Assembly (NCBI RefSeq): GCF_013626205.1
Contig: NZ_QHJE01000001.1
Coordinates: 3,018,501-3,082,500 of the forward strand
Origin: Hyphomicrobium methylovorum
GTDB taxonomy: Bacteria > Pseudomonadota > Alphaproteobacteria > Rhizobiales > Hyphomicrobiaceae
Direction: 5' to 3'
DNA length: 64,000 nt
How positions within the stretch are numbered: position 1 is the first letter of the stretch; every line of letters starts with the position of its first letter. Below are positions 3,975 to 23,842 of the stretch, piece by piece. The notes under the pieces were generated by a model. The model did not search any database, was not told the origin of the DNA, and worked only from the letters and a program-made list of their open reading frames with translations. The position numbers and the translations under genes were made by a program.

Positions 3975-4197
3975 CCGAAGATAGCTTCGACAAAATGAAT
4001 ATCGGGACGCCGACGTAGAGTTCGATACGACGGCGTTAAGCTTCGTGCGGCCGCGCTCTGTGTTGCCAGCGCTCGTATTGCCGACAGCATAATTCCAGTC
4101 CATGTTCCGATCCAAGAGTGGAAATACGCACACGCAGCGTTGTTTCGTGGTTCGGGTTTTCGGCCGCGCACAACAACAGAACTTATTTGGAGGAACT

Positions 4198-5142
4198 ATG
4201 CGTTACGCTTTGGCGATGCTGCTGTTGTCGGCATTTTCGGCCGCTGCGTCAGAGGATATTCCGGATCAGTATCCGCAATCCGTACTGTACTCAAAGCCTG
4301 TCGAGTTCATTCCTCACGTATTCACAGCTATCGGGGCAACTGCGCCGCCAACGTATGAGAATGCAGGCCACAACAACAATCTTTCCTTCATCGTCACTGG
4401 CGATGGCGTTGTCGTTGTAAATTCGGGTGCTTCATGGCGCCTGGCAAAGGCGCTGCACGACGAGATAAAACTCGTCACCGATCAGCCTGTGAAGCTAGTA
4501 ATAAATGAGAATGGTCAAGGCCATGCCATGCTCGGAAATAACTATTGGATCGAGCAAAAAGTACCGGTTTTAGCGCATGCCGATGCTGCTGCGGATTTTG
4601 CCGATCGTAGTCCGCAACACTTGGAGTCGCTGAAGAAGTACGCGCGCGAAAATGCTGAAGGAACAGTCCCGATGGGGCCGACGGAGACCTTCACCGACAG
4701 TCGCGTTATTACGATGGGGGATTTCCGTATCGAAATTCTTCATCTCGGGCCAGCGCACAGTCCCGGCGATGCACAGGTATGGCTGCCCAATCAATCTTTG
4801 ATAATTACGGGAGACCTCGCTTTTCACGAAAGGCTGCCGCCAATTTTTGAAGGAACCTGCACCTCGTGCTGGATCGATACTTGGGAAAATAAGCTTGTTC
4901 CGCTCGCGCCGACATACGTCATTCCGGGGCATGGACATCCAACAAATCTCGCGCAGGTGACGCGCTATACGCACGATTATCTCGTTGATCTTCGCGCCAA
5001 AGTGAAAGCTCTGATAGACGAGGGCGGAGATCTGAAAGCGGCGTATTACGTCGATCAGTCGAAGTGGTCTCACCTCGATACGTTTGAGGAACTGGCGACC
5101 AAGAATGCCGGCGTGGTCTATGCCGAAATGGAGTTTGAATAG
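4198..5142 (+). CDS. Exported metallo-beta-lactamase-fold protein with altered metal motif
   Basis: Start chosen at 4198, where TTGGAGGA precedes ATG by about 5 bases and the protein opens with a signal peptide (MRYALAMLLLSAFSAAASA-like, ending near residue 18). This gives 314 residues. The fold is metallo-beta-lactamase: LSFIVTGDGVVVVNSGAS, the later histidine/aspartate motifs GPAHSPGD and ITGDLAFHE, and the final histidine in VIPGHGHPT. The canonical HxHxDH site is replaced by NENGQGH at residues 103-109, so the usual first metal site is not intact. It resembles SoxH-like hydrolases often found near sulfur-oxidation or quinoprotein genes. The gene sits alone between the cbb genes and the mtoX operon. 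Substrate unknown; catalytic activity uncertain. Confidence 0.82.
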   Translation: MRYALAMLLLSAFSAAASEDIPDQYPQSVLYSKPVEFIPHVFTAIGATAPPTYENAGHNNNLSFIVTGDGVVVVNSGASWRLAKALHDEIKLVTDQPVKLVINENGQGHAMLGNNYWIEQKVPVLAHADAAADFADRSPQHLESLKKYARENAEGTVPMGPTETFTDSRVITMGDFRIEILHLGPAHSPGDAQVWLPNQSLIITGDLAFHERLPPIFEGTCTSCWIDTWENKLVPLAPTYVIPGHGHPTNLAQVTRYTHDYLVDLRAKVKALIDEGGDLKAAYYVDQSKWSHLDTFEELATKNAGVVYAEMEFE

Positions 5143-5784: not shown

Positions 5785-6390
5785 GTGAACACGTACTTCC
5801 GATGTGCACCGACGCTCAAACTGATCTGCGCCATGGCGGCGTTGTCAGTTGCGGGCAGCCTTTCGGTGAAGGCTTATGAAGAAGGTACCTTCCCAACCGC
5901 TGATCTGGTCGGCGGCGAGGTCTTTCCTAAGGGCCTGCAACCTGGCGATGCCTTCCCGATGGACGTCAAACTTTTTGACGAAAGCGGGGCGGAAAAGAAC
6001 CTAGGAGACATCACTTCCGGCAAGCGGACTCTGTTGGTGTTCTTCATTTCAGCGGCGCCTGTGTCTGTCGCTGAGCTCTCGAAAATCGATAAGTTTGTCG
6101 CTGCCGACAAGAGCGACACGCAGGTCATTTTCGCGAATGCGGATACGGTTGGTGTTGCTCTCATGGGAGCAAAGCCGATCGCAGAAACCGTTCGGACCAT
6201 CAATCTCGTCAAGAAGGAAAACAATCTGACGTCACCGATCTTCGTGGCGCCGAATAACGTTCTAGACCCGGGCGGAATTTCCAACAGGCTTGGTTTCCGT
6301 GGTCTCCCGACGAGCTATCTGATTAGCAAGGACGGGAAGGTGGAGAAACAGTTCGTCGGTTCCCGCGAGTGGAAAACAGGCGATCTATAA
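5785..6390 (+). CDS. Exported thioredoxin-fold (redoxin) protein lacking active-site cysteines
   Basis: GTG start at 5785, preceded by AGAGAGGA, gives 201 residues with a signal peptide (about residues 1-30). The mature part is laid out like TlpA/AhpC-TSA redoxins: LQPGDAFPMDVKLFDESG, a core strand LLVFFISAAPVSVAEL, and RLGFRGLPTSYLISKDGKV, which includes the cis-proline-like GLPTSYLI segment. In TlpA-type proteins the stretch after the core strand holds WCxxC; here residues 88-97 read ISAAPVSVAE with no cysteine. The only cysteines are in the signal peptide, so classical thiol-disulfide exchange is excluded. The gene ends 23 bases before mtoX and is surely in its operon. It may be a chaperone or metal-delivery partner of MtoX; that role is inference. 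Confidence 0.8.
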   Translation: MNTYFRCAPTLKLICAMAALSVAGSLSVKAYEEGTFPTADLVGGEVFPKGLQPGDAFPMDVKLFDESGAEKNLGDITSGKRTLLVFFISAAPVSVAELSKIDKFVAADKSDTQVIFANADTVGVALMGAKPIAETVRTINLVKKENNLTSPIFVAPNNVLDPGGISNRLGFRGLPTSYLISKDGKVEKQFVGSREWKTGDL

Positions 6391-6413: not shown

Positions 6414-7886
6414 ATGGAAATTTCTAGAAGGCGTTGGCTCGCCAGCGCCGCTGGTGTTGGAGTTGGCGCAGGTCTCGCGCTACAGAAGCCGTTGTCGGGT
6501 GCAGCATTTGCTGCAACGCATGACGCCAGCAAAGAAGCTCAGCACTCGCTTTTCAGCAAGTTTAAGAACCAGGTTGTGCTTATCCCTGGCAAGTACAATG
6601 GCAACGTTTCGGCGCTCGATCTGAGCGTGCCGGAAACGCTGGCTTGGTACACATTCGGACGCCAAGGCATCGACATGCCTATTCCGCATCATATCGCGGC
6701 GATGCCGTCGAGCGATCCGTACAAGTCGTTTGATTTCTATCAGACGATGCAGCCGCCTGGCGCGCCGTACGTCAACGAGAACTCTCCGGAGTGGCGCAAC
6801 CGCGGCGACTTCAAGATGTTCAAGATGCGTTATGATGGAAGTGGAGCGCAGAACTCCATTTCTGTCGTCAACGATATCTCGGCAACGACCGGCATGGCGC
6901 TCGGCGTTCACGTGTCCATCGGTGTTGGCGTCAACGCGAACAAGTACGTCGCGTTCGCTGATGGCCAGAAGGACATGGTGCTGATCACGACGGTCGATGA
7001 CGATCCGAAGATCGTGAAGGCGTTCCGTTGCGACTACGATCCCAACTCGCGCGAACTTCATATTTCTCACATGTTCCCTGAGGGCTCTACGGGCAAGTTC
7101 GACTTGCAGGGCCGTAAGGGTATGAAGACGTCTCACGAAGCTATGCTTGGTGAAGAGTTGATGCCTGCGGATCCCACAGCGGTATTCGTCGACGCATTCA
7201 CTTGGCATCCGACGTTGCCTCTCGGAGCCATCCTCATTCGTCGTCATGGCTGCTGCTGCATCGTGAACACGGATACGTGGGAACCGGTGGCGCTGTTGTC
7301 GACTGCCAAGGGTGCGCCGGACTCGTTCCCGCTCATCAAGCAGACCGGCTACACGTGGACGTTCTCGATCCCGTCGGTTCTTTCGCCGTTGCATGAAGCT
7401 GGCTTCATCACCAGCGGTCAGTACTTCCTCGCTTGCAACAACGTTCTGCAGAACAACGTTGCTGTCTACCGTTCCGAAGATCCCGATCCGAGGAAGTGGA
7501 AGAAAGAGAACTTTGTTGAAGGCTTCGGCAACAAGTATCTGCCTCTGCACATGGGCAACGTGCCGGATTCCCGTTGGGTCTTCTTCACGATCTGGGCTCG
7601 CAAGCCGAACAACGGCTTCATCTGTAAGGTGGATCCCAAGACGTGGAAGATTGCGGCCAAGTGGGATACGGGTCCCGATCCGCACACGTGCGATTGCACG
7701 ACCGATGGCAAGTACATCACGACGGTGTACAGCGGCCATCAGGCCGGTCAGTCGGGCCTCGTTGTGATCGACGCAGACTCCGATGAGATCGTTGCACGCT
7801 TGCCGACGGCAGCGGGTAGCCACGATCACGTCGTTGTTCCTGAGTCCTGGGAAGGCCTCAAGGCATCACGCAGTACTTCCGTTTAA
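6414..7886 (+). CDS. mtoX: Methanethiol oxidase, selenium-binding protein 56 family (Tat-exported)
   Basis: SBP56-family methanethiol oxidase. The bacterial enzyme is copper dependent and converts methanethiol and O2 to formaldehyde, H2S and H2O2 in the periplasm. The ATG at 6414 is preceded by GGGAG; the 490-residue product opens with a twin-arginine signal (SRRRWLASAAG). Family hallmarks include the cysteine cluster HGCCCIVNT near residue 280, HTCDCTTDGKY near residue 425, and the GSHDHVV histidines close to the C-terminus, all within a beta-propeller-like sequence. It lies directly after the cysteine-less redoxin and before other exported proteins and a metal-type RND pump. In studied Hyphomicrobium loci mtoX neighbours SCO1/SenC and MauG-like genes; that arrangement is not seen here. 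Confidence 0.93.
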   Translation: MEISRRRWLASAAGVGVGAGLALQKPLSGAAFAATHDASKEAQHSLFSKFKNQVVLIPGKYNGNVSALDLSVPETLAWYTFGRQGIDMPIPHHIAAMPSSDPYKSFDFYQTMQPPGAPYVNENSPEWRNRGDFKMFKMRYDGSGAQNSISVVNDISATTGMALGVHVSIGVGVNANKYVAFADGQKDMVLITTVDDDPKIVKAFRCDYDPNSRELHISHMFPEGSTGKFDLQGRKGMKTSHEAMLGEELMPADPTAVFVDAFTWHPTLPLGAILIRRHGCCCIVNTDTWEPVALLSTAKGAPDSFPLIKQTGYTWTFSIPSVLSPLHEAGFITSGQYFLACNNVLQNNVAVYRSEDPDPRKWKKENFVEGFGNKYLPLHMGNVPDSRWVFFTIWARKPNNGFICKVDPKTWKIAAKWDTGPDPHTCDCTTDGKYITTVYSGHQAGQSGLVVIDADSDEIVARLPTAAGSHDHVVVPESWEGLKASRSTSV

Positions 7887-7976: not shown

Positions 7977-8399
7977 ATGTTCAAGAGAATTTGGGTCAAC
8001 TCTCTTTTTGCGCTGTTTGCACTTGTTATGGGAGCAGCAGTGTCAATGCACTCGGCTGGTGCTCACGATAACGCCGACCTTGCGGCTCATCCTGGACCGA
8101 ATGGCGGCATGGTTCAGATGTCCGGTGATTACCACATTGAATTGCTGCTCAAGCCAGACGCAGTGAATGCCTGGCTCACCGATCATGGTGACGTGCCTCA
8201 AAGTACAGAAGGGGCTGCTGCCCGGGTGACGATCTTCGGTAGCAATGGAGCGCGAACGTCTTTAGATCTCCAGCCTGCCGACAAGAATGCCTTCCGCGCC
8301 AGCGCCAAGCTTGACGAGACAAAGGGCGTTCGTGTTGTGGTGGATTTGACGATGCCTGGAGAAAGTCCAGTGCAGATCCGCTTCGACATTCCTCGTTGA
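7977..8399 (+). CDS. Exported protein of unknown function, possibly metal-related
   Basis: A 140-residue protein with a clear signal peptide (about residues 1-30, ending in SAGA). The mature start is histidine-bearing (HDNADLAAHPGPNGGMVQMSGDYHIELLL), followed by an all-beta-looking domain with no cysteines. The HPGPNGG...YHIELLL layout resembles small periplasmic proteins often encoded beside heavy-metal RND efflux systems, which suits the pump genes 2 kb downstream. No enzyme motif is visible. The start ATG at 7977 has GGGAGTAGGGAA upstream. Function not assigned. Confidence 0.75.
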   Translation: MFKRIWVNSLFALFALVMGAAVSMHSAGAHDNADLAAHPGPNGGMVQMSGDYHIELLLKPDAVNAWLTDHGDVPQSTEGAAARVTIFGSNGARTSLDLQPADKNAFRASAKLDETKGVRVVVDLTMPGESPVQIRFDIPR

Positions 8400-8440: not shown

Positions 8441-9055
8441 ATGCGGCGTGTGTTGTTCTTGCTTGTCTTCAGCCTCGCTGCGTCTTCAGCTTTCGCTGAA
8501 GAGTCCAATAGAGACCGCCTTATAAAGACGAACGCTTGCTCCGGTTGTGACTTGGCGGGCGTCGATCTTTCGGGCGTTGGACTGATACACGCGGACTTGC
8601 GCGGAGCCGATCTATCTGGCGCGAAGCTTCAGAGCGTCAATTTGAATGCGTCGCAGCTGGACGGTGCCAAATTTGAGAATGCCGATCTTCGCTCCGCATT
8701 GCTTGGCGGGGCGCATATGGAAGGGGCGATTTTCAAGGGCGCGACGATGGACGGGGCGACGCTGACGCTCGCGAAGCTTGTGAATGCCAACTTTGAGGCT
8801 GCTTCGCTCGTAGGCGTAAGGTTCGACAATGCGAACCTTGAAAGCGCAAATTTCGAGCGCGCCAAGCTGGTTGATGCCGATCTTTACAATGCGAGACTGT
8901 TCTTTGCGAACTTCTCTGAAGCCGACCTGTCCGGTGCGGATCTGAGTGCGGCGGATATCGGTGAAGCGGACTTTACAGATGCCGTTTCAAACGAAAAAAC
9001 GACATGCCCCAAATTTGGCAGCGGTCCATGTTGGGGCGAAGACAGCACCAAGTAG
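8441..9055 (+). CDS. Exported pentapeptide-repeat protein
   Basis: A 204-residue protein with a signal peptide (MRRVLFLLVFSLAASSAFA) and a long run of A(D/N)LXX pentapeptides from about residue 38 to 180 (for example ADLRGADLSGAKL). Such repeats fold as a right-handed quadrilateral beta-helix. The repeat block is preceded by NACSGCDL, a two-cysteine cap common in this subgroup, and followed by a short tail with two cysteines (TTCPKFGSGPCWG). It starts 41 bp after the preceding exported protein, so probably the same transcript. Its role in the mto cluster is unknown; a scaffold role is only speculation. Confidence 0.88.
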   Translation: MRRVLFLLVFSLAASSAFAEESNRDRLIKTNACSGCDLAGVDLSGVGLIHADLRGADLSGAKLQSVNLNASQLDGAKFENADLRSALLGGAHMEGAIFKGATMDGATLTLAKLVNANFEAASLVGVRFDNANLESANFERAKLVDADLYNARLFFANFSEADLSGADLSAADIGEADFTDAVSNEKTTCPKFGSGPCWGEDSTK

Positions 9056-9080
9056 GTCTCTATCGTGGAGCACGATTAAA

Positions 9081-10034
9081 GTGGTCACCAAGGTTGACGA
9101 CGTGAAGTCGATTTCGAGACGTGGAGCCCTGCAACTTGCGGCCGGTGCCGGAGTGGCGGTTGCGTCTCTGTACAACTCGTCGATGGCGCAGGCGCTCAAG
9201 CGCTTTTCGATTGGCGCTTCGGAGATCGTCATTATCAGTGACGGAAATCTCGTTCTTCCTGCTTCTTTTGTGTTTCCAGAAGTCGCCGATGCCGAGCGTG
9301 CCGGTGCTTTAGCGGAAAGCGGCTTGCCAACGGATACTGTGAAGCCGGACTGCAACGTGGTGCTGTTGCGTCTCGGAGAGCGGTCAGTGTTGTTCGATGT
9401 CGGTTCGGGCGGGAACTTCATGCCCACGGCCGGCAAGCTTCTGGAGAATCTCGGGGAGGCTGGGGTTTCGCCCGATAGCATCACAGACGTCGTGTTTACA
9501 CATGCGCATCCCGATCATCTTTGGGGACTGACGGATGAATTCGACGAGCTGGTGTTTGCGAATGCAACTTACAGAATGATGCAGGCTGAATGGGATTATT
9601 GGTCTGATCCATCGACATTGGACAAGACGCCCGAGGATCGGAAAACCTTTGTCGTTGGCGCGCAGAGACGCCTGCCTTTGATCAAAGAGAAGCTGGAGCT
9701 GTTTTCACCCGGCGCTGAAGTCATACCGGGTGTTGAAGCTATCGGTACGCCGGGTCATACGCCTGGGCATGCTTCCTTCATGATTCACGGAGAGGGCAAC
9801 TCTCCGCTGCTGATTACGGGCGACGTTCTTTCCAGCCCGGTGTCGTTTACACATCCGAACTGGCATTGGGGTACCGATCACGATCCGAAGGAAAGTGTCG
9901 TTACACGGAATAAACTTCTGGATCGTGCTACTCATGAAAAAGCGAGACTGATCGGCTATCATCTCCCGCATCCGGGAGAAGGCGTTGCAGTCGCTGACGG
10001 TACGGCCTATCGCTTCCGCTCTTCTGAGGGTTGA
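9081..10034 (+). CDS. Tat-exported metallo-beta-lactamase hydrolase, SoxH-like
   Basis: The start is uncertain; GTG at 9081 with GGAG upstream gives 317 residues and a compact twin-arginine signal (SRRGALQLAAGAG). GTG at 9102 is an alternative. Unlike the protein at 4198, this one has the full metal site: THAHPDH (HxHxDH), the histidine in GHTPGHASF, the aspartate in ITGDVLS, and a late histidine in IGYHLPHPG. It therefore should be an active periplasmic metallohydrolase. Members near sox or methylotrophy genes are often called SoxH, but the substrate is not established. It lies 25 bp after the pentapeptide gene and 19 bp before an RND adaptor, so the genes look co-transcribed. Confidence 0.85.
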   Translation: MVTKVDDVKSISRRGALQLAAGAGVAVASLYNSSMAQALKRFSIGASEIVIISDGNLVLPASFVFPEVADAERAGALAESGLPTDTVKPDCNVVLLRLGERSVLFDVGSGGNFMPTAGKLLENLGEAGVSPDSITDVVFTHAHPDHLWGLTDEFDELVFANATYRMMQAEWDYWSDPSTLDKTPEDRKTFVVGAQRRLPLIKEKLELFSPGAEVIPGVEAIGTPGHTPGHASFMIHGEGNSPLLITGDVLSSPVSFTHPNWHWGTDHDPKESVVTRNKLLDRATHEKARLIGYHLPHPGEGVAVADGTAYRFRSSEG

Positions 10035-10053
10035 CCGCTTAAGGAGGTTTGCG

Positions 10054-10929
10054 GTGCGCTATCTGGGTTTGGTTTCGCTTTTCTTGTTGTGTGCGGTTGT
10101 TCTGCCCCGACACGTCCACGCGCATTCCGACGCTTCGAGCTTCGCAAGTGACGATCACGGCGCTGTGCATTCGCATCATGAGAGGGAAGAGCGTACCTTC
10201 TATCCGGCGACAGTCGTTATCGATCCGCAGAAGAGCAAGAACGTCGTCCTCAAGGTCAACGCGCGCATAACGCGACTGCTTACGGGCTTTATCGGAGAGA
10301 AAGTCTCTCAGGGACAGGTTCTCGCCGAGTTTGAAAGCGCCGAGCTCGCGACGCTGCAGCAGACGTTTATTGAAACGATCATCAATCGCGAGGCGATGAC
10401 GGCGTTCAGCACGACCGGCGAAGAAAAAATTCTCGAAGGCCGCATGAATTTGCGGTGGCGGGGCCTTTCGAACTCCGAGATCGATCGTATCGAAAAAGAT
10501 CGCCGTCCGATGCAGACGGTCGAGATCGTGTCGCCGCTCGATGGGATGCTTATAGGCGTCAACGTCGCGACATCGCAGATCGTTTCTGCCGGATCGCGCG
10601 GAGGCCTGTTTAGCACTGCGGGGACGACGTTGTTCCGCGTGGCGACCGCTGATGCGCTTCTGGTTGAAGCGCAGATGCCACATCACATCGCTGCGGAGTT
10701 GAAGCCGGGTGAGGTCGTCGAACTTCATATTCCGGGTACGACTTCATCCGAGGCGATCAAGGGAACCGTGGAGACTGCGGTTACCCAGATCAATCCTGTA
10801 AACAGGACGGTGACGGTCCGGGTTCGGCCGGATGCGCAAAGCGCTGGTGCGCTTCTTTCAGGAACGACCCTTCTCGTCGCCCTGCAAAACAAAGATCGTG
10901 AGGACGACCACCATCATGGCAAGCATTAG
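10054..10929 (+). CDS. RND efflux periplasmic adaptor subunit (short, His-rich ends)
   Basis: GTG start at 10054 with a strong AAGGAGG gives 291 residues with a signal peptide. The body is a membrane-fusion (HlyD/CusB-like) adaptor: a barrel-sandwich half starting VLKVNARITRLLTGFIGEKVSQGQVLAEFES, a short helical hairpin, the second lipoyl half (VEIVSPLDGMLIGVNVA) and a beta-barrel (ALLVEAQMPHHIAAELKPGEVVELHIPG). Both ends of the mature protein are histidine-rich (HSDAS...HSHHERE at the N-terminus, DDHHHGKH at the C-terminus), which suggests metal binding. It overlaps the next adaptor gene by 14 bases, so translation is coupled. Two adaptors for one pump is unusual. Confidence 0.87.
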   Translation: MRYLGLVSLFLLCAVVLPRHVHAHSDASSFASDDHGAVHSHHEREERTFYPATVVIDPQKSKNVVLKVNARITRLLTGFIGEKVSQGQVLAEFESAELATLQQTFIETIINREAMTAFSTTGEEKILEGRMNLRWRGLSNSEIDRIEKDRRPMQTVEIVSPLDGMLIGVNVATSQIVSAGSRGGLFSTAGTTLFRVATADALLVEAQMPHHIAAELKPGEVVELHIPGTTSSEAIKGTVETAVTQINPVNRTVTVRVRPDAQSAGALLSGTTLLVALQNKDREDDHHHGKH

Positions 10930-12097
10930 AGACAGCATCCTGCGGTGCGGGTTGTTCACGGCTTTGGTGTTGCTCTCGCTTTCTGCAATCGTGCCAACTC
11001 AATCCGCTGCCAATGATGAGCACGCGTCCGGCACAGGGTCGTCGCAGGAAAAGCACGACGATAATCCGTCGGTTGTTATCGCCGACAAGACCTTGGTGAC
11101 TTTAGCTTCCGCGCAAGCGAAACCTGCAGCGGATGCTTACAACACCTTCGGCCGCGTCATCGCTCATCCGGCTGCGGTGCGGGACATCAACGCCAATATT
11201 AGCGGCCAGATCGAAAGCGTGCTCGTGCGCACGGGCTCCGTCGTTAAGCAGGGCGACGCTATCGCTACGGTTACGAGTCCGGATTTCGTCTTTACACAGC
11301 GGTCGTATCTAATCTTGCTCAGCAATGAGGAGCGGCTTGCCATTCTGCGAGAGGAAGGCAACCTCCCCAACTTTCTAAAGAGTGCCCGTGAGAACCTTAA
11401 GTGGTGGGGCATGACCGAGAAGCAGATTGATGAGCTCGCGAGCAGCAAGACGATTGTCGAGCAAATTACAATTCCTGCTCCAGTCGACGGCGTTATCACG
11501 GAGATCTCGGTACAGCCCGGGGACGTCATCGATGCGGGCGATAAAACGATGCAGAATTTCATCGTTCTCGGCCGGGTGATTGCGCGGATGCTCGAAACCG
11601 AACGCGCGCCGCTGCTCGAGGTTTACGCGTATGCCAATACCATGTCGTCGCTTCGGCCCGGCACTACGCACGTGAGGTTTGCAGCAAAGCAGGGCGGCGC
11701 ATCGGTTGATGTTCCGATCACGTATGTTGCGCCTCAGGTCGATGGCACAGCCCAGATGGTGCGCTCGATCGTGGACCTGAAGGATGTTTCGCATGAGTTT
11801 TCGATTGGCGACACGCTGCCGGTTGCGGTGCTGAAGGAGTCTGCGGAGGGTGTGTGGGTTCCTCGCGCCGCCATTCTACGGCAGGAGCTGCAACCCGTAG
11901 CTTTTGTGCTGAAGGCGGACGGTTCTTTTGAGCGGCGATCGCTTGAGACATTCGAGAGCGCGGGCCAATGGGTGCGCGTCGGCAATGTTGCGCTTACGGA
12001 AAAGCTTGTGACGAGCGGCAAGACCGTTCTGGAGGGCGCATATCGTCATCAGGTTGGTGGCGTTGAGCCCGATCACCACCACGATCACAGTCATTGA
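10916..12097 (+). CDS. RND efflux periplasmic adaptor subunit, CusB/CzcB-like
   Basis: Start chosen at ATG 10916, inside the end of the previous adaptor gene; this gives 393 residues with a signal peptide (about 1-35). Adaptor architecture is clear: lipoyl halves around NISGQIESVLVRTGSVVKQGDAIATVTS and ITIPAPVDGVITEISVQPGDVIDAG, an intervening helical hairpin, then beta-barrel and membrane-proximal domains. The C-terminus is a histidine/aspartate tail (EPDHHHDHSH). It is the full-length adaptor expected for a heavy-metal RND pump and is followed 10 bp later by that pump. The metal is unknown. Confidence 0.9.
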   Translation: MASIRDSILRCGLFTALVLLSLSAIVPTQSAANDEHASGTGSSQEKHDDNPSVVIADKTLVTLASAQAKPAADAYNTFGRVIAHPAAVRDINANISGQIESVLVRTGSVVKQGDAIATVTSPDFVFTQRSYLILLSNEERLAILREEGNLPNFLKSARENLKWWGMTEKQIDELASSKTIVEQITIPAPVDGVITEISVQPGDVIDAGDKTMQNFIVLGRVIARMLETERAPLLEVYAYANTMSSLRPGTTHVRFAAKQGGASVDVPITYVAPQVDGTAQMVRSIVDLKDVSHEFSIGDTLPVAVLKESAEGVWVPRAAILRQELQPVAFVLKADGSFERRSLETFESAGQWVRVGNVALTEKLVTSGKTVLEGAYRHQVGGVEPDHHHDHSH

Positions 12098-12107
12098 GGC
12101 CATCGGT

Positions 12108-15100
12108 ATGTTCAATTGGATAATCGACTGGTCGCTTCGCAACAGACTCGTTGTTTTGATACTCTACGTTCTGCTGGCGATGGCGGCTGTAGCTGTCGTT
12201 CCCAAAATGACTGTGGATGTCTTTCCGGAATTTGCGCCGCCGCAGGTGCAGGTTCAGACGGAGGCTCCGGGCTTCTCCGCGAAGGATGTCGAGCTGTTGG
12301 TGACGAGACCGCTTGAGGCTGTTCTTCAGGGCATGCCGGAGGTCGATCAGATTCGTTCGAATTCTTCGGTTGGTCTGTCTCGCGTCATCGTTGTCTTCAA
12401 GAATAGCATCGACGTTTATCGCGCGCGGGCGATCGCTCAAGAGCGATTGCAGATGGTGCGCGGACAGATGCCGACGGGCGTGAACCCGTCGCAGATGATG
12501 CCGATGACGTCAGCCATCAGCTGGCTCGTGAAGTTTGCGCTGGTCGACTGGTCGCCGAATCCAAATCCGATGGCGCTGAGGAGTCTCGTCGATTGGGAGT
12601 ATCGCAACCGGCTGTTGGCGCAGCCCGGCGTTGCGGAGGTCGTTGCGGTTGGAGGCAAGGTCAAGCAATTCCAAGTGCAGGTCGACCCGATCAAGCTCAA
12701 ATCCTACGGTATCCCGTTCTCGGATGTGATCGCGGCTGCTGAGCAAGCGAACGTCGTTGCGCCTGGTGCATTTATCTATCCGAGCCCGGATGAGGAATAC
12801 ACCATTCGCGTCAACGGGCTTGCGCAGAGCCTCACGGATATCGGGCGGACGCCGGTGGCGACACGCGATGGCGTGCCCGTACTGCTGAGTGACGTTGCGG
12901 AAGTGAAGCTCGGCGAGGAAATCAAGCGCGGCGATGCGATGATGCTCGGCGGCGAAGCGATCGTCGCCACGATATCGAAGCAGTGGGGCGCAAATACCAT
13001 TGAGACGACGAACCATATCGATGCGGTTCTAGCTGACCTTGCGAAGAACCTTCCGCCGGGCGTCGAGATGCATTCTCACGTTTTCCGCCAGGCGACATCG
13101 ATCGAACGCTCCATGAGCAACCTCACCGAGGCGCTCTTGGAGTCCGCGATCATCGTGGGGTTCGTTCTGCTACTTCTGCTGGGCCGGTGGAGACCGACTT
13201 TTATCAGTCTTGTCGCCATACCCGCTTCGTTGACGGTGGGCGTGCTTTTCCTTTGGTTCGGGGGCATAGGGCTGAACGCCTTGACGCTCGGAGGCTTGAT
13301 CTTCGCGATAGGCGAGGTCGTCGACGATGCGATCATCGACGTCGAAAATATTCTCAGGCGATTGCGTGAAAACGACAAAGAGAAATCGCCTGCGAGCGCG
13401 ATGCATATCGTCTATGAGGGCTCGCGAGAGATCCGCAACTCGGTGGTCTATGCTACACTCATCGTAGCCGCGGCTTTCCTGCCGATCTTTTTCTTGTCCG
13501 ACATCGAGGGTCGCATCTTTGCGCCGATGGCGATCGCCTATCTTGCGGCTGTTGTTGGTTCCTTGTTTGTCGCGTTGTCGCTTGTGCCGGTGCTCTCGTA
13601 CTACGGGATGGCACGCTCGGCGAACGCCACGCAGAACGCGATGAGCCCGGTTGCGAGTTGGCTTAAGCGCCATTACGGCAACTTCTTGAAACGGACTATC
13701 GGTAGTGGCCGGATCATTCTGGCGACGTACGTTTCCTGTCTTGTTCTGTTTGCGGTTCTTCTGTTTTCGCTCGGCCGCTCGTTCATGCCGACATTGGCGG
13801 AAGGGAACATTGTCATTGCGACAACGATGATGCCCGGCACATCGTTGGAGGAAAATCTTCGCATGGGCCGCAAGATCGAAGCGCGGCTTGGTGCTATTCC
13901 GGAAATCGCCAGCGTTGCTCAGCGGGCAGGTCGGTCGCGGCTGGACGAGGATGCGCAGCCCGTCAATTTCAGCGAGTTCGACGTAACCCTGAAGCCGGAC
14001 GTCGGTGATCCCCATGCGGTTCTGAAGACCATTCGGGAGAGCTTGGGCGAATTCCCCGGCATCAACATCAACGTCTCGCAGTTCATCACGCACCGGATGC
14101 AAGAAATTCTGTCCGGGGTAAAAGCGCAGGTCGTTCTGAAGATCTTCGGACCTGACCTTGACGTACTCACTGCGAAGCAGGCCGAGATCCTCGAGGCCGT
14201 AAAGCCGGTCATCGGTGTTACGGATCTGCAGGCGGAGCCAATGATCCGTGTTCCCGGAATCGATATTCGTGTCGATCGGCAGGCGGCGGCGAGCTTCGGA
14301 TTTACGCCAGGTGAGATTGTTCGTCAGGTCGGTCAGGCGTTGAACGGAACGGCCGTATCGCGCGTTCTCGAGGATGATCGCACTTATGATCTTTTCGTGC
14401 GTCTCGATGAGCCTAGTCGCGCTGCTCTTTCAGATATTCGCGATATGCCTTTGCAATCGAAGCAGGGGCCTGTGGTACCGCTTCGTCAGGTCGCGACGCT
14501 GGAAGCTAATCTTGAGCCCTATCAGATCAATCGCGATTCAGGCACGCGACGCTCTGTTGTGCAGTGGAACGTGACGGGTACCGATCTGAACAAGAGTATT
14601 GTTGCTGCTCGCGAGGCTATCGCCAGCCAAGTCAAACTTGATGCCGGTTACTCGATCGAGTTCGGCGGCGACTATGTCGGGCAAGAGCGTGCGACCCACA
14701 ACCTGCTTCTTGCGGGAACCGCAACGCTTGCAATCGTCTTTATGCTGTTGCTGCTCGCGTTCCGGTCTTTCTGGTTTGCGACACTCGTGATGGTGAGTAT
14801 TCCGTTTGCGCTCATCGGAGGTGTGTTCGCGTTATGGATCTCTGGCGAAACACTCAACGTGGCCTCGATCATCGGACTGATCGCACTTACCGGGATTGCT
14901 GCGCGGAATAGCATATTGCTGCTCTCGCGATATCAGGCGCTCGGTGAGAGCCATGAGCTCAGCGACGAGGACGTTGCGATCCACGGTGCTACCGATCGCA
15001 TGTTGCCTATTCTGATGACGGCGTTGGCGACGATCTTGGCGGTCATTCCGCTTATGATTGGAGATCCGGTCGGGAAGGAATTCCAGGGCGCGGTGGCATT

Positions 15101-15236
15101 GACTTTGGTTGGTGGGATGTTGAGTTCAACTCTGTTGAATCTGCTGATCTTGCCGACGGCGTACGTCTATTTTTCACCGAGCCGTGAAAAGGCGCGTGAT
15201 GGACGGGACGAACGCCAGGCAACGGTGGTCAGCTAA
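12108..15236 (+). CDS. Heavy-metal-type RND efflux pump (CusA/CzcA family)
   Basis: Inner-membrane RND permease of 1042 residues from ATG 12108, opening MFNWIIDWSLRN. It has the two-fold RND repeat with large periplasmic loops after TM1 and TM7. TM4 carries the acidic heavy-metal signature GEVVDDAIIDVEN (about residue 405), with the D/D/E pattern used for proton coupling in CzcA/CusA. Heavy-metal-type landmarks also include SFMPTLAEGNI and SEFDVTLKPD. It follows two His-tailed adaptors. No outer-membrane factor gene is present in the cluster. The cargo could be copper, which MtoX needs, or another metal; sequence alone does not decide. Confidence 0.92.
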   Translation: MFNWIIDWSLRNRLVVLILYVLLAMAAVAVVPKMTVDVFPEFAPPQVQVQTEAPGFSAKDVELLVTRPLEAVLQGMPEVDQIRSNSSVGLSRVIVVFKNSIDVYRARAIAQERLQMVRGQMPTGVNPSQMMPMTSAISWLVKFALVDWSPNPNPMALRSLVDWEYRNRLLAQPGVAEVVAVGGKVKQFQVQVDPIKLKSYGIPFSDVIAAAEQANVVAPGAFIYPSPDEEYTIRVNGLAQSLTDIGRTPVATRDGVPVLLSDVAEVKLGEEIKRGDAMMLGGEAIVATISKQWGANTIETTNHIDAVLADLAKNLPPGVEMHSHVFRQATSIERSMSNLTEALLESAIIVGFVLLLLLGRWRPTFISLVAIPASLTVGVLFLWFGGIGLNALTLGGLIFAIGEVVDDAIIDVENILRRLRENDKEKSPASAMHIVYEGSREIRNSVVYATLIVAAAFLPIFFLSDIEGRIFAPMAIAYLAAVVGSLFVALSLVPVLSYYGMARSANATQNAMSPVASWLKRHYGNFLKRTIGSGRIILATYVSCLVLFAVLLFSLGRSFMPTLAEGNIVIATTMMPGTSLEENLRMGRKIEARLGAIPEIASVAQRAGRSRLDEDAQPVNFSEFDVTLKPDVGDPHAVLKTIRESLGEFPGININVSQFITHRMQEILSGVKAQVVLKIFGPDLDVLTAKQAEILEAVKPVIGVTDLQAEPMIRVPGIDIRVDRQAAASFGFTPGEIVRQVGQALNGTAVSRVLEDDRTYDLFVRLDEPSRAALSDIRDMPLQSKQGPVVPLRQVATLEANLEPYQINRDSGTRRSVVQWNVTGTDLNKSIVAAREAIASQVKLDAGYSIEFGGDYVGQERATHNLLLAGTATLAIVFMLLLLAFRSFWFATLVMVSIPFALIGGVFALWISGETLNVASIIGLIALTGIAARNSILLLSRYQALGESHELSDEDVAIHGATDRMLPILMTALATILAVIPLMIGDPVGKEFQGAVALTLVGGMLSSTLLNLLILPTAYVYFSPSREKARDGRDERQATVVS

Positions 15237-17623: not shown

Positions 17624-17639
17624 ATTCATAAAATCATAT
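17624..17639 (-). promoter_or_regulatory. Candidate SoxR operator before soxX
   Basis: ATTC-ATAAAATC-ATAT on the plus strand, reading ATAT-GATTTTAT-GAAT on the minus strand. One half matches the ATTC-N8-GAAT pattern described for SqrR exactly and the other is degenerate. It lies 92 bases upstream of the chosen soxX start in an AT-rich patch likely to hold the promoter. Confidence 0.4.
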
Positions 17640-17730
17640 GTATGCATTGATCCCGAAGTCGATGCAGGCCTTCTGTATCGGATTTTGCCGGCAGTTGATT
17701 CGATTGGTTCGGAAAGAGGGGCTGCTCTCT

Positions 17731-18189
17731 ATGGGTTGGAAATGTGCTGTAGTCGGCGTTTTGGGGGCATTGCTCTCGGTCTCGTCGGTATCGGCTGACG
17801 ATGTCAGCCCCGCCGATGTCAAATTCGAAGACGGCGCGGTCGCTTCTTCGATTTCAGGGCAGCCAGGTGATCCCGTGAAAGGCGCTGCGACCTTTCTGGA
17901 TCGCAGCTTGGGTAATTGCCTAGCATGTCACGCGAACAAGGCCATGGAAAAGGAATTGTTTCATGGCGATGTTGGCCCGACGATGGATGGCGTAGCCGAG
18001 CGTTATACGCCTGAACAATTACGAGCGATCGTTGCCAACGCCAAGAAGGTGTTTGGCCCTGATACGATTATGCCCGGCTTCTACACACTGGAAGTCGGCA
18101 AGTATGTTCGAGACGATCTCGTGGGAAAGACGGTTCTCTCTCCACAGCAAGTGGAAGACGTTGTCGCTTACCTCGTGACGCTCAAATAA
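17731..18189 (+). CDS. soxX: Sulfur oxidation cytochrome c SoxX
   Basis: Mono-haem partner of SoxA; SoxAX attaches thiosulfate to the SoxY cysteine. The ATG at 17731 is chosen because AAAGAGGGG precedes it and it begins a proper signal peptide (MGWKCAVVGVLGALLS...), giving 152 residues. The longer frame from 17638 starts inside the candidate operator and adds 31 residues unlike a signal. The haem site is CLACH at residues 63-67, and the distal methionine is in TIMPGFY. First gene of soxXYZAB. Confidence 0.93.
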   Translation: MGWKCAVVGVLGALLSVSSVSADDVSPADVKFEDGAVASSISGQPGDPVKGAATFLDRSLGNCLACHANKAMEKELFHGDVGPTMDGVAERYTPEQLRAIVANAKKVFGPDTIMPGFYTLEVGKYVRDDLVGKTVLSPQQVEDVVAYLVTLK

Positions 18190-18220
18190 CAACAAGAATG
18201 GCTTCAAGAAGGAGGACATA

Positions 18221-18676
18221 ATGAATCTCAGTCGACGGCAAGCTCTTATGTATTGCACCGCCGGCGCGACCGTCGTCGCGTTGGGAGGGCTCGGTGCGAT
18301 TTCCCCATCCATGGCCGATGACCTATTGGATAAGGAAATTAACACGTTTACCGGGGGCAAAACTCCGGCGGCCGGTAAAGTTACGCTCACTGTTCCCGAA
18401 ATTGCGGAGAACGGAAACACCGTTCCTGTGTCGGTCTCTGTAGATAGCAAGATGACCGACGGCGATTTGGTTCAATCCGTGATGCTTGTCGCGGACGCGA
18501 ATCCGTTCCCGAGCGTTGCCACGTTCAATTTTACTGCGCTGGGTACTGCTGCTGCAACGACGCGCATACGCCTCGCGAAAACACAGAACGTCATCGCTAT
18601 CGCCAAAATGGCAGACGGCTCCGTGTACATGGACAAAAAGCTTGTCAAGGTCACCATCGGCGGCTGCGGCGGCTAA
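18221..18676 (+). CDS. soxY: Sulfur carrier protein SoxY
   Basis: Carrier subunit of SoxYZ. The 151-residue protein starts after a strong AAGGAGG and carries a twin-arginine signal (LSRRQALMYCTAG). It ends in the swinging arm GGCGG (residues 147-151) whose cysteine C149 holds the sulfur intermediates passed between SoxXA, SoxB and SoxCD. SoxZ has no export signal, and the complex is presumably exported together through the SoxY Tat signal. It lies 31 bp after soxX. Confidence 0.96.
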   Translation: MNLSRRQALMYCTAGATVVALGGLGAISPSMADDLLDKEINTFTGGKTPAAGKVTLTVPEIAENGNTVPVSVSVDSKMTDGDLVQSVMLVADANPFPSVATFNFTALGTAAATTRIRLAKTQNVIAIAKMADGSVYMDKKLVKVTIGGCGG

Positions 18677-18700
18677 TTAAAATTCCAGGGAGAAAATGCA

Positions 18701-19027
18701 ATGGCAACGCCAAAGCCGCGCGTAAAAGTTCAAAAAACTGCAACGGCCGGGGAAGTGGTTATCGTCAAGACGCTAATCAGCCACGATATGGAATCCGGTC
18801 AGCGGAAAGACAAAGATGGGAAGCTGATCCCTCGGCATATCATCAATAAATTCATCGCGGAATTTAATGGGCAGCAGGTCTTTTCCTGCGACGTTCATCC
18901 CGCTGTTTCGTCGAATCCGTATTTCGAATTTGGCGTCAAGGTTTCCCAAAGCGGAACCTTCAAATTCATCTGGATGGACGACGACGGCTCCTCCTATTCG
19001 GATGAACAAAAAATCGAAGTTAAGTGA
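18701..19027 (+). CDS. soxZ: Sulfur oxidation protein SoxZ
   Basis: Partner of SoxY, 108 residues with an immunoglobulin-like all-beta fold: opening PKPRVKVQKTATAGEVVIVKTLISHDMESGQRKD (typical SoxZ, shown here as consecutive blocks PKPRVKVQK and VIVKTLISHDMESG), then FNGQQVFSCDVHPAVSSNPY and FKFIWMDDDG. No signal peptide is present, as expected for piggy-back export with SoxY. The ATG follows AGGGAG, 24 bp after soxY. Confidence 0.95.
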   Translation: MATPKPRVKVQKTATAGEVVIVKTLISHDMESGQRKDKDGKLIPRHIINKFIAEFNGQQVFSCDVHPAVSSNPYFEFGVKVSQSGTFKFIWMDDDGSSYSDEQKIEVK

Positions 19028-19084
19028 CCTCTTGCATGCACCGCCGACATCTGTGTCGCCGCTAGATAGAACGGGGAGATCCGT

Positions 19085-19936
19085 GTGCGGAAAATTTTCA
19101 CGATTGGAGCCACGGCTTTCGCCTGTCTGATTGGCGCAGTCTCGGCATCAGGTGATCCTGCTGATGAGAAACTCGAAATAGACGGCGTCGAGATCATCAC
19201 GCGCGCGAAGGCGATTGATGGTCTTCCGTTCGATGAGGTCGTTTCGGGTTGGCTTTATCGCGAGCCGGAAACTCGGAAGATGCAGGCGGATGCATTCCAG
19301 AATCCAGGCATGCTTGCCGTGGAAGAGGGCGAATCTCTTTGGGGCAAAGTGGAGGGCACGGCTGGGAAGTCGTGTGCGTCCTGTCACAATGACGCTCCGG
19401 AAAGCATGAAGAATGTTGGTGCGCATTATCCTAAGTGGGACAAGAAAACCAACAAACCCATAAACGTCGAAGGGCAGATCAATGCTTGCCGCGTCGACAA
19501 TATGGGAGCCGAGCCCTACGCGTATAATGCGCCCCAGCAGATCGCTCTTACCGCTTTCATCAAACATCAAGCCATGGGTCAGCCGATTTCGCTGAACCTT
19601 GATGATGGAGAAATGAAGACTTGGTGGGAGAAGGGCAAAGATCGCTTTTACCTGCGCACCGGTCAGCTCAATTTTAATTGCGCCTCTTGCCACGAAGTCG
19701 GCTTCGGGAAGCATATCCGCGCTGACTACCTCAGCCAGGGTCAGATCAACGGGTTTCCGACGTATCGCTTTCAACCGGGCTCAATGGTTTCGGCGCACGA
19801 ACGGTTTCGCGGATGCATCCGTGACTCTCGGGCAAACATGCCTGACGGGATGTCCGACGAGTTGTTGGCGCTCGAGGTCTACGTGACGTCTCGAGGCACC
19901 GGTCTATCGGTAGAGACGCCGGCCGTTCGCCACTAG
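19085..19936 (+). CDS. soxA: Diheme cytochrome c SoxA
   Basis: Catalytic subunit of SoxAX, which couples thiosulfate to SoxY C149 with release of electrons to cytochrome c. The GTG at 19085 has GGGGAG upstream; 283 residues with a signal peptide ending around residue 22. Two haem sites, CASCH near residue 96 and CASCH near residue 199, make it the diheme form. The active-site cysteine lies in FRGCIRDSR near residue 244, where the persulfide haem ligand is expected. It follows soxZ by 57 bp. Confidence 0.95.
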   Translation: MRKIFTIGATAFACLIGAVSASGDPADEKLEIDGVEIITRAKAIDGLPFDEVVSGWLYREPETRKMQADAFQNPGMLAVEEGESLWGKVEGTAGKSCASCHNDAPESMKNVGAHYPKWDKKTNKPINVEGQINACRVDNMGAEPYAYNAPQQIALTAFIKHQAMGQPISLNLDDGEMKTWWEKGKDRFYLRTGQLNFNCASCHEVGFGKHIRADYLSQGQINGFPTYRFQPGSMVSAHERFRGCIRDSRANMPDGMSDELLALEVYVTSRGTGLSVETPAVRH

Positions 19937-20018
19937 GCAACGCTTGGCATCGGTATCTTAGTTTTCGGTTTGTCGGTTTGCTCCGGCAACGAGATGTCTT
20001 GAGCTGAAAGCAGAATTT

Positions 20019-21710
20019 ATGATCTCTCGACGTGAGTTTCTTGCAGCAACGACTGCGCTATCGGCGCTTGCCGGAACCGGGCTCTCGAGTAATTGGGCGC
20101 GTGCCGCTAGTCGGCAGGCGCTGAGCCAGAGTGACCTTCTGGACTTCCAGTCGTTCGGCAACGTAACGCTCGTGCATATCACCGATATCCACGGGCAGTT
20201 GATGCCGATGCACTTCCGGGAGCCATCGGTGAATCTCGGTGTTGGAAGCGTGGCGGGGCTGCCGCCGCACGTCAGCGGCGCGGACTTCCTCAAGCTGTAC
20301 AATATCGAGCCGGGGACGCCGCAAGCTTACGCTTTGACATCTGACGATTTTACCTCGCTCGCAAGTGCGTATGGGCGCATGGGCGGCATGGACCGCATTG
20401 CAACGATCGTCAATTCGATCCGTTCAGCACGCGGCGATAACATGCTGCTGCTGGATGGTGGCGATACGTGGCAAGGCAGCTACACGTCACTGAAGACCAA
20501 AGGGCAGGACATGGTGGATGCCATGAACGCGCTCAAACCCGATGCCATGACGGGGCATTGGGAATTCACCTATGGCACCGCCCGAGTTAAGGAAATCGTC
20601 GACTCGCTGCCGTTTCCATTTCTCGGTGGAAACATCTACGACGCCGAGTGGAACGAGCCGGCGTTCAAGGCCTACAAGATGTTCGAGAAGGGTGGCGTGC
20701 GGATTGCCGTCATCGGTCAGGCGTTTCCCTATACCCCGGTTGCGAACCCGCGTTGGATGTTCCCGGATTGGTCGTTCGGGATTCGTGAAGAAGAAATCGT
20801 TGCCAACGTTAAAGCCGCCCGGGCCGAAGGCGCTTCGCTCGTTGTCTTGCTGTCGCATAACGGATTCGATGTCGATCGCGCCGTCGCGTCCCGCGTCCCG
20901 GGTATCGACGTCATTCTAACCGGCCATACGCATGATGCGTTGCCGGAGCCGGTCAAAGTCGGAAAGACACTGCTGATCGCATCGGGGTCTCACGGGAAGT
21001 TCGTTAGCCGGTTGGATCTCGATGTCGGAAAAGATGGCGTTGCCGGTTTTCGATACAGATTGATTCCCGTTTTTTCTGACGTCATCGCGCAAGATGCCGC
21101 CATGACGAAACTGGTCGCGGATTTGCGCGCTCCCTACGAATCTGAACTCAAACGCGAGCTGGCGACAGCCGATACGCTTCTTTATCGCCGCGGCAACTTC
21201 AACGGTACGATCGACGATTTGATCTGCCAGGCTTTGCTTGACGTTCGGGAAGCGGATATTGCGCTTTCTCCTGGCTTCCGTTGGGGCACCTCGGTTCTCC
21301 CAGGTGCAAAGATAACGGTCGAGGATTTGCACAACTCCTGCGCAATGACTTACCCCTCCGCTTATCGCTCCACGATGAGTGGTCAACAGCTCCGGGATAT
21401 TCTGGAGGATGTGGCCGACAATCTCTTCCATAAGGACCCCTACTATCAGCAGGGCGGCGACATGGTTCGCGTCGGTGGGATGGGCTACTCGATTGTCCCC
21501 GAGGGCGAAATGGGAAGCCGTATATCCGATATGGTCTTGTTGAAAACGGGCGAGGCAATTGAACCGACAAAGAATTATGTCGTTGCCGGGTGGGCTTCCG
21601 TCAATCAGGCGACTGAGGGTCCGCCGATTTGGGATGTCGTAGAGGAGCACCTCAAGAGAAATCCAACGGTGCAGCTCGCGGAGAACCGGAGCGTGAAAAT
21701 TAAACACTGA
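20019..21710 (+). CDS. soxB: Thiosulfohydrolase SoxB
   Basis: Dimanganese enzyme that hydrolyses sulfate from SoxY-bound S-sulfonate. The 563-residue protein has a twin-arginine signal (SRREFLAATTA) and calcineurin-like motifs: ITDIHGQ (residues 54-60), DGGDTWQGS near 146, GHWEFTYG (the SoxB form of the GNHE block), LSHNGFD and GHTHDA. The C-terminal 5'-nucleotidase-like domain contains the substrate-binding segment. The gene starts 82 bp after soxA. A 91-bp gap with its own palindrome separates it from soxC. Confidence 0.96.
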   Translation: MISRREFLAATTALSALAGTGLSSNWARAASRQALSQSDLLDFQSFGNVTLVHITDIHGQLMPMHFREPSVNLGVGSVAGLPPHVSGADFLKLYNIEPGTPQAYALTSDDFTSLASAYGRMGGMDRIATIVNSIRSARGDNMLLLDGGDTWQGSYTSLKTKGQDMVDAMNALKPDAMTGHWEFTYGTARVKEIVDSLPFPFLGGNIYDAEWNEPAFKAYKMFEKGGVRIAVIGQAFPYTPVANPRWMFPDWSFGIREEEIVANVKAARAEGASLVVLLSHNGFDVDRAVASRVPGIDVILTGHTHDALPEPVKVGKTLLIASGSHGKFVSRLDLDVGKDGVAGFRYRLIPVFSDVIAQDAAMTKLVADLRAPYESELKRELATADTLLYRRGNFNGTIDDLICQALLDVREADIALSPGFRWGTSVLPGAKITVEDLHNSCAMTYPSAYRSTMSGQQLRDILEDVADNLFHKDPYYQQGGDMVRVGGMGYSIVPEGEMGSRISDMVLLKTGEAIEPTKNYVVAGWASVNQATEGPPIWDVVEEHLKRNPTVQLAENRSVKIKH

Positions 21711-21749
21711 AATTGACGATAATTTAGTGTTGGCGTTACGAGTTTGGCT

Positions 21750-21779
21750 TGATATATAGAAAAATATGAATATATATCA
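21750..21779 (+). promoter_or_regulatory. Palindromic AT-rich site before soxC
   Basis: TGATATATA (21750-21758) and TATATATCA (21771-21779) form a perfect 9-bp inverted repeat with a 12-base centre. Within it, 21756-21771 reads ATAG-AAAAATAT-GAAT, the same layout as the sites before soxX and the porin gene. It sits 22 bases before the soxC ATG, where a repressor or a separate soxCD promoter could act. Confidence 0.45.
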
Positions 21780-21801
21780 CTCTCGCAATTAGGGGAGTCC
21801 C

Positions 21802-23100: not shown

Positions 23101-23842
23101 GGTTCTATTTGCCGTCACTGCTCTTGCTGCATTTGGCGTTGTGTCTGGCGTAAACGCGGCAGATACGAAGAAGGTCGCTGCGACGTCGAAGAAGGATGCG
23201 TCCTCTACGACGGAACAAGTGACCAAGGTGTCGACGCACCAGCTTGGCCGGCTCGCGACTGAGGATGAGATCGCTGCTTGGGACATTGACATACGTCCCG
23301 ATGGAGTCGGTCTGCCAAAGGGCAAGGGAACGGCGGCACAAGGCGAGCAGATTTACGGCGACCATTGTGCCGTGTGTCATGGCGATTTCGGTGAGGCGAC
23401 CGGGCGTTGGCCACCTCTCGCGGGCGGCGCCGGAACGCTCACGGCCGAGCGGCCGTTGAAAACGATAGGTTCGTATTGGCCGTATCTCTCGACCGTTTAT
23501 GACTACGTGCGTCGGGCTATGCCGTTCGGGAACGCGCGGTCGCTTTCGAATGACGATGTCTATGCGTTGACGGCTTTCCTGCTGCAACTCAATGACGTCA
23601 TTCAAGACGAAAACTTCGAGCTGTCAGACAAAAACTTCACGTCGATCCATCTGCCGAATGAAAAGAATTTCATCGACGATGATCGCTTGTCCGAGCCGAA
23701 CTACGTGAAGAACGAAGAGCCGTGCATGTCGAATTGCAAGCCGGATAAGGCAAAGATCTCGGCGCATGCCGCGGTTTTGGACGTGACGCCGGAGAATAGC
23801 GACGACAAAGAAGATGGCGCCAATAAGGGCGGCGTAGAGTAG
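23084..23842 (+). CDS. soxD: Sulfane dehydrogenase cytochrome c subunit SoxD (mono-haem form)
   Basis: Cytochrome subunit that takes electrons from SoxC. The ATG at 23084 lies inside the soxC end, so translation is coupled; 252 residues with a signal peptide (about 1-22). One haem site, CAVCH at residues 95-99, with a distal methionine candidate in RRAMPFGNA. The Paracoccus SoxD is a longer diheme protein. Here the second site is absent; instead the C-terminal part has CMSNCK (C214, C218), a two-cysteine motif without the haem histidine. It ends in a charged tail. A hairpin terminator follows 38 bases after the stop. Confidence 0.92.
   Translation: MSKSLKVLFAVTALAAFGVVSGVNAADTKKVAATSKKDASSTTEQVTKVSTHQLGRLATEDEIAAWDIDIRPDGVGLPKGKGTAAQGEQIYGDHCAVCHGDFGEATGRWPPLAGGAGTLTAERPLKTIGSYWPYLSTVYDYVRRAMPFGNARSLSNDDVYALTAFLLQLNDVIQDENFELSDKNFTSIHLPNEKNFIDDDRLSEPNYVKNEEPCMSNCKPDKAKISAHAAVLDVTPENSDDKEDGANKGGVE

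Follow-up and report, generated by a model that had tools for sequence, protein, structure and literature searches.

What is a thioredoxin fold good for once its thiols are gone? In the 64,000 nucleotides of Hyphomicrobium methylovorum DNA that we analysed (the window), the gene at 5785–6390 on the plus strand encodes an apparently exported pseudo-thioredoxin with no cysteine in its mature part, and the gene that follows encodes a predicted thiocyanate dehydrogenase (TcDH). Within one TcDH lineage this Cys-less redoxin is a constant companion, present at every locus that we examined, and not a peculiarity of two halophiles. We lean, by a modest degree, toward reading it as a dedicated non-redox docking and assembly partner of the enzyme.

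A Cys-less protein of the thioredoxin superfamily encoded before TcDH was already known in two species, where Tsallagov et al. 2019 proposed it as a sulfur acceptor (in the part of PMC6504805 drawn on here). Here we extend its known distribution, correct the identity of its neighbour and favour another role for it. The window holds a thiocyanate-oxidation operon rather than the mtoX locus that an earlier note on this DNA had described, and for copper supply, sulfur acceptance and protein partnership, three jobs that had previously been merged, we propose a separate gene each.

Results

The redoxin gene begins at a GTG, preceded by AGAGAGGA, and specifies 201 residues. Residues 88–97 read ISAAPVSVAE and residues 173–180 GLPTSYLI, and the only two cysteines, at residues 7 and 15, both fall within an apparent signal peptide that was called by eye, without a predictor, and from which we infer export. 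The Pfam Redoxin profile matches the product above its cut-off (E 4.2e-07), and all 24 of 24 family members match it at E 0.01 or better. An AlphaFold2 model has a mean pLDDT of 81, with the first 32 residues below 50 and residues from about 50 on mostly well modelled; in Foldseek it resembles thiol-disulfide oxidoreductases of the ResA type (E about 1e-08), and it superposes on 4nmu with Z 16.0 and rmsd 2.3 over 132 residues, and reaches Z 16.0 to 1st9 too. On predicted fold and profile together, the product belongs to the TlpA/ResA/redoxin branch of the thioredoxin superfamily. The CxxC cysteines of StoA and of 2l5o, a putative thioredoxin, align with residues 91 and 94, which places the CxxC-equivalent site at A-P-V-S (residues 91–94; 6055–6066, plus strand). 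The exported thioredoxin-fold protein without active-site cysteines that the earlier note described, with both of its sequence landmarks, is thus confirmed by sequence, Pfam and model.

How general is the loss? Our residue counts cover 29 complete copies (the window's, 23 from a scan of genome contigs and 5 from other stretches) and only alignment columns present in the window copy; the redoxins of L021, L024, L025 and L030 are cut by contig ends and were excluded. The thioredoxin domain contains a cysteine in 0 of the 29. At the first cysteine position there is Val in 18 copies, Ala in 9, Ser in 1 and Asn in 1; at the second, Ser in 28 and Ala in 1. In one copy, L129, a lone Cys stands at residue 30, close to where cleavage is presumed and before the conserved tail described below; relatives' start codons were picked by a script for length, so positions of signal-peptide cysteines are approximate. 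Since no domain cysteine occurs in any complete copy, the loss is old and maintained, and the possibility that it is confined to this one genome, which had been named as grounds for abandoning the idea, falls away. Because neither position, nor any other in the domain, has a Cys in these copies, we also rejected a CxxC thiol-disulfide oxidoreductase, in agreement with the earlier view that the protein is not a reductase. The wider redoxin family is not thiol-free, because CxxC is reported for some of the homologues aligned in the supplement of PMC6504805.

What the family has kept is as informative as what it has lost. Seventeen positions are invariant over the 29 copies, and eight of them (G34, F36, P37, A39, V42, G43, G44 and V46) lie in the segment GTFPTADLVGGEV, residues 34–46 (5884–5922, plus strand), which comes after the signal peptide and which we presume to be a docking tail; its pLDDT of about 59–67 denotes modest model confidence. 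The other invariant positions include F87, R172, P175, G184 and W196. R172 and P175 belong to R-G-L-P-T (residues 172–176; 6298–6312, plus strand), the presumed cis-proline loop, which is the partner-binding loop in thioredoxin folds. Purifying selection acts on the gene: dN/dS (Nei-Gojobori) lies between 0.06 and 0.24 for 12 of the 13 pairs chosen and is saturated for the remaining one (window versus L032), with L034 and L036 excluded from this and the distance tests. L034 (Paracoccus sp. S-4012) has a TcDH match spread across frames and a redoxin frame that extends about 50 residues further, which may be real or a sequencing error.

Ligands for a metal are hard to find in the redoxin. Past residue 35 the window copy contains no His, and past residue 15 no Cys; among the alignment columns present in it, neither His nor Cys reaches 30% of the 29 copies anywhere. 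Methionine does best at position 152 (18 of 29), followed by 139 (12 of 29) and 127 (11 of 29). Nor does the protein belong with SCO1/SenC: PF02630 gives no match at E up to 1, Cys and conserved His are missing, and the one SCO chain in the redoxin profile search appears only at E 0.09.

The redoxin stop codon ends at 6390 and the next ATG lies at 6414, with 23 bases between them, just as the earlier note had it. That next gene (6414–7886, plus strand; 490 aa; twin-arginine N terminus, SRRRW) is the one it called mtoX. Searched against all solved structures, its product matches thiocyanate dehydrogenase 5f75 at E 1.1e-73 and has its best match in 8q9x at E 2.5e-82, labelled in the structure search only as a twin-arginine protein and which we take to be a TcDH from Pelomicrobium. 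The legend to Figure 4 of PMC6504805 names 13 active-site residues of TcDH; the window copy has 13 of 13, the positions having been mapped by eye from alignments. By these matches and residues the product is a thiocyanate dehydrogenase, predicted to oxidise thiocyanate to cyanate and sulfur at a copper active site. A cyanase (PF02560) was searched for in the Hyphomicrobium genome and not found.

The mtoX identity had to be given up. Neither SBP56 (PF05694) nor any other Pfam family matches 6414–7883, and the genome's SBP56 gene is elsewhere: its only such match is at C1:2523962, about 500 kb from TcDH, and is followed by SCO1/SenC and MauG-like genes. This mtoX-SCO1-mauG operon occupies about 2523879–2527082 of G000:C1 (= L134:6879–10082). 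The redoxin gene is not in it, so the association with mtoX that the earlier note foresaw does not hold in the one genome whose operon we looked at.

Where, then, does the redoxin occur? TcDH itself is rare near home: it has a match in 1 of 103 genomes of the same family (the window genome), in 3 of 385 in a sample of the class and in 2 of 398 in a sample of the phylum, with the window genome counted in each. Because of this rarity, we suggest that the TcDH cluster was acquired horizontally. Among 150 relatives the redoxin search matched 2; the second match is to a TlpA-like protein that carries CVPC.

A scan of genome contigs with two peptide patterns, which by eye do not fit 5f75 (Thioalkalivibrio) or 8q9x and so leave that TcDH type unsampled, gave 80 TcDH loci (the best 80 of 145). 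A sharp gap separates two sets among these 80: 27 close loci (L010–L036) at 70–87% identity and 53 distant ones (L037–L089) at about 31–35%. The close set includes Paracoccus thiocyanatus, Guyparkeria SCN-R1, Thiohalobacter, Thiobacillus species and metagenome-assembled genomes with "SCN" in their titles. Directly upstream of TcDH the redoxin is found in 27 of 27 close loci (four of the redoxins are cut by contig ends), versus 0 of 57 distant TcDH-like loci (L006–L009 plus L037–L089), where the upstream sequence is short in some (under 500 bases in L064, L066 and L079, under 900 in L055, L063 and L086) and absence there is weak. A whole-genome search of 45 genomes with a family profile found the redoxin in 25 of 25 with a close TcDH versus 0 of 20 with a distant one only; one genome has two close TcDH loci and two redoxins. 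The tie to an adjoining copper enzyme that the earlier note proposed therefore stands, with the enzyme no longer MtoX.

The partnership extends beyond the scan. In the Thiobacillus family (117 genomes) 16 genomes match the redoxin, 14 strongly and 2 weakly (E about 6e-06); in 13 of the strong ones it lies beside TcDH, and in G1003 the sole copy is truncated where the contig stops, with TcDH not in view. One of the weak matches, L120, is a WCPPC protein; the other is L121. In the class of Thiohalobacter, with 369 genomes sampled, TcDH occurs in 6 and the redoxin adjoins it in 6 of 6, including two whose TcDHs share just 57% identity with the window's and whose redoxins share 29–30%. On plasmids the redoxin search found nothing; the two plasmid matches to TcDH are both distant homologues in Methylocella, and tblastn over 17 kb around one of them found no redoxin.

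Redoxin and TcDH distances correlate (r = 0.92, 22 loci; none of 5000 permutations reached that value), and distances between the redoxin and the small protein encoded at 7977–8399 correlate nearly alike (r = 0.88, 20 loci). Because of that second figure, the correlation shows co-inheritance, as in a co-inherited operon, rather than contact.

The close TcDHs have peculiarities of their own. Cysteines C280, C281, C341, C404, C426 and C428 (residues 280–428; window 7251–7697) are each present in 24 to 27 of 28 close copies, gaps being counted as absence. The last two stand two and four residues past active-site His482, in H424-T-C-D-C428 (7683–7697, plus strand), whose His aligns with the His482 position. 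Both of the intermediate TcDHs (57% identity) have C341 and one has C281. Among the 57 distant copies the six cysteines occur in 8, 1, 1, 9, 0 and 1, respectively, and in printed alignments the 5f75-type chains have Cys only at the equivalent of C281 (five of six are not Cys) and 8q9x has none of the six. dN/dS for TcDH is 0.012–0.127 in the 12 pairs in which the redoxin is not saturated (Nei-Gojobori). In the 57 distant TcDH-like proteins almost all of the active-site residues are retained, but 53 of 57 have Gln where His482 would be; among their record titles are Planctomycetota, Melainabacteria, Verrucomicrobia and methanotrophs.

Downstream of TcDH, the gene at 7977–8399 (plus strand) encodes a small, apparently exported protein of 140 aa that is our candidate for the operon's copper chaperone. 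Of the 25 close loci with sufficient contig, 24 have a homologue; L031 lacks it, and L029 and L036 are too short to tell. In an alignment of 24 of 25 copies, the window's included (L024 was excluded as apparently the same as L023), His30, which directly follows an A-x-A site, His53, Glu55 and Asp69 are invariant in 24 of 24, and His70 is present in at least 90%. The model (pLDDT 88.5) finds its closest fold in our structural listing in CrdA (9ll4; Z 11.8, rmsd 2.4 over 94 residues), followed by FetP at Z 11.2, a DUF4426 protein at Z 10.6, and P19, HftA and FtrA at Z about 10. Foldseek gives two matches below 0.001, both CBM56 domains (7.0e-04), and CrdA 9ll4 comes next at 1.7e-03. The likeness of the model to the CrdA/FetP/P19 fold is a moderate one. 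There is no Pfam match at the cut-off and no NCBIfam match, CopC does not appear in the fold listings, though a likeness to it is still conceivable, and the methionine-rich motif of CrdA, as given in the part of PMC9182242 drawn on, was not seen by eye in the protein or its family consensus. dN/dS is 0.20–0.66 in the 11 pairs, of 12, that have the gene, so that, being less constrained than the redoxin, it makes a weaker case for being essential. Even so, this protein is more likely than the redoxin to be the copper chaperone, and it may be the functional counterpart of the CopC of Thioalkalivibrio, because copC and copD are described near TcDH there, in the portion of the published account at hand.

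Further along the plus strand come a pentapeptide-repeat protein with an apparent signal peptide (8441–9055; Pfam), found by tblastn downstream of TcDH in 22 of 25 testable close loci; a metallo-beta-lactamase-fold hydrolase (8991–10034), AidB-like in a profile match below cut-off; two CusB/HlyD-type periplasmic adaptors (9985–10929 and 10832–12097); and a CusA-type RND transporter (ACR_tran; 12054–15236), the starts of these last four being uncertain. L031, on a contig titled as a Nitrospira defluvii metagenome-assembled genome, has the redoxin and a TcDH (70% identity) but lacks homologues of both 7977–8399 and the pentapeptide protein; the contig may reflect transfer or mis-binning. Upstream of the redoxin, 4102–5142 encodes a metallo-beta-lactamase-fold protein like the SoxH-related quinoprotein relay hydrolases, below cut-off. 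The thiocyanate-oxidation operon lies near sox and RuBisCO genes. The sox genes fill 17638–23842 on the plus strand, with SoxX, SoxY, SoxA, SoxB and SoxC above NCBIfam cut-offs within 17638–23097 and no NCBIfam match at 23084–23842, the soxD position. The soxY gene is about 10 kb from TcDH, and the SoxY thiol is a plausible acceptor for the sulfur.

Discussion

Why would an operon hold on to a thioredoxin that can do no thiol chemistry? The answer that we find somewhat more likely than not is that the redoxin serves TcDH as a partner. It is apparently exported, retains its predicted thioredoxin fold and presumed cis-proline binding face, and has its catalytic pair changed to Ala or Val and to Ser; it would dock on the beta-propeller of TcDH through the FPTAxxVGGxV tail and the cis-proline face; and it would aid folding, assembly or upkeep of the copper site in the periplasm while itself carrying neither copper nor sulfur. 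Of this, the predicted fold, the lack of thiols, the strict pairing of the two genes in the loci covered and the purifying selection are observed; the contact, the docking surface and the help in assembly are proposed, as are the roles that we give to 7977–8399 and SoxY. Other carriers for both are available, because there is a copper-protein-like fold next door and SoxY nearby: copper would be delivered by the His-bearing product of 7977–8399 rather than by the redoxin, and zero-valent sulfur would pass to thiol carriers such as SoxY. Such a partner would not be required for the chemistry itself, because the active TcDH of Thioalkalivibrio has other neighbours in the part of its description drawn on. 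Those neighbourhoods, as described there, contain genes of unknown function, one of which immediately precedes TcDH in a single strain.

The published proposal is that the redoxin accepts zero-valent sulfur from TcDH and ferries it to oxidising enzymes, perhaps by way of bound glutathione (Tsallagov et al. 2019). The gene position matches, the chemistry needs an acceptor (both points from the part of PMC6504805 drawn on), and the window's cluster is near sox genes. However, without a single domain cysteine in the family a persulfide is impossible there, the case for glutathione in the same part of that paper is argued from a glutaredoxin-like protein, and a thiol carrier, SoxY, is encoded close by; we think the proposal quite improbable for this family. 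We would give a similarly slim chance to the copper chaperone, or copper-insertion factor, that the earlier note suggested, by which the redoxin would bind copper and pass it to the enzyme. It does adjoin a copper enzyme and Cus-type genes, and its fold is common to SCO proteins, one chain of which came up at E 0.09 in the profile search, but the sequence lends the idea no support, with no conserved His or Cys to hold the metal, and 7977–8399 is the better candidate. The note's other suggestion, a maturation chaperone, may hold.

Could the redoxin instead never leave? A permanent structural subunit of mature TcDH, shaping access for the electron acceptor or aiding removal of product sulfur, would fit the one redoxin per close TcDH locus, including the genome with two of each, as well as the purifying selection, and a thioredoxin-fold protein sitting on a 7-bladed propeller exists in PDB 2TRC (cited in the part of PMC6504805 drawn on). 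Against this, the Thioalkalivibrio TcDH is described, in the portion at hand, as a single-subunit periplasmic protein, and we regard a permanent subunit as unlikely. The loss of active-site cysteines might also invite the thought of a gene decaying without function. That is hardly credible: the low dN/dS, the 17 invariant positions over 29 copies and the fixed place before TcDH in every close locus all speak against it, and a pseudogene is contradicted by the selection results.

Returning to the redoxin as docking and assembly partner, we may venture further, to a picture that is possible and a good deal more doubtful. The redoxin may have become an assembly factor of the periplasm that has no thiols and serves one client only, a multi-copper enzyme, its tail and its old cis-proline face docking on the propeller, its cysteines purged since thiols would trap zero-valent sulfur or strip copper. 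The conserved cysteines gained by the clade's own TcDH, two of them just after His482, may then be what holds the sulfur.

How does all of this compare with systems already known? Closest are Thiohalobacter thiocyanaticus HRh1 (L016) and Guyparkeria sp. SCN-R1 (L015), the two species of Tsallagov et al. 2019 and both among our 27 close loci, which have the same gene in the same position. CusA and CusB genes are nearby in these two and in the window alike, downstream of TcDH in the window whereas they are upstream in L015 and L016. In the literature searched, by title or abstract start and with subscription papers outside its scope, we found no later study of a TcDH-linked Cys-less redoxin.

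The thiol-active relatives ResA, StoA, TlpA and DsbE share with the redoxin the predicted fold (Z 15–16 to ResA chains) and the Gly-x-Pro-Thr segment; they differ from it in that its CxxC has become A/V-P-x-S in most copies and an extra conserved tail precedes its domain. SCO1/SenC chaperones are, like the redoxin, thioredoxin-like folds next to a copper enzyme, but SCO proteins bind copper through a Cys pair and His, and the redoxin has neither conserved. CrdA, FetP, P19 and FtrA resemble the 7977–8399 product in predicted fold, in an apparent signal peptide and in an invariant His where the mature N terminus presumably lies, at 9–11% identity to CrdA and FetP in structural alignments. For the role that we prefer, the parallels are phosducin (PDB 2TRC) and ERp29, eukaryotic proteins that we liken to the redoxin by fold alone and in which a thioredoxin fold without the catalytic pair serves protein binding, as we propose that it does here.
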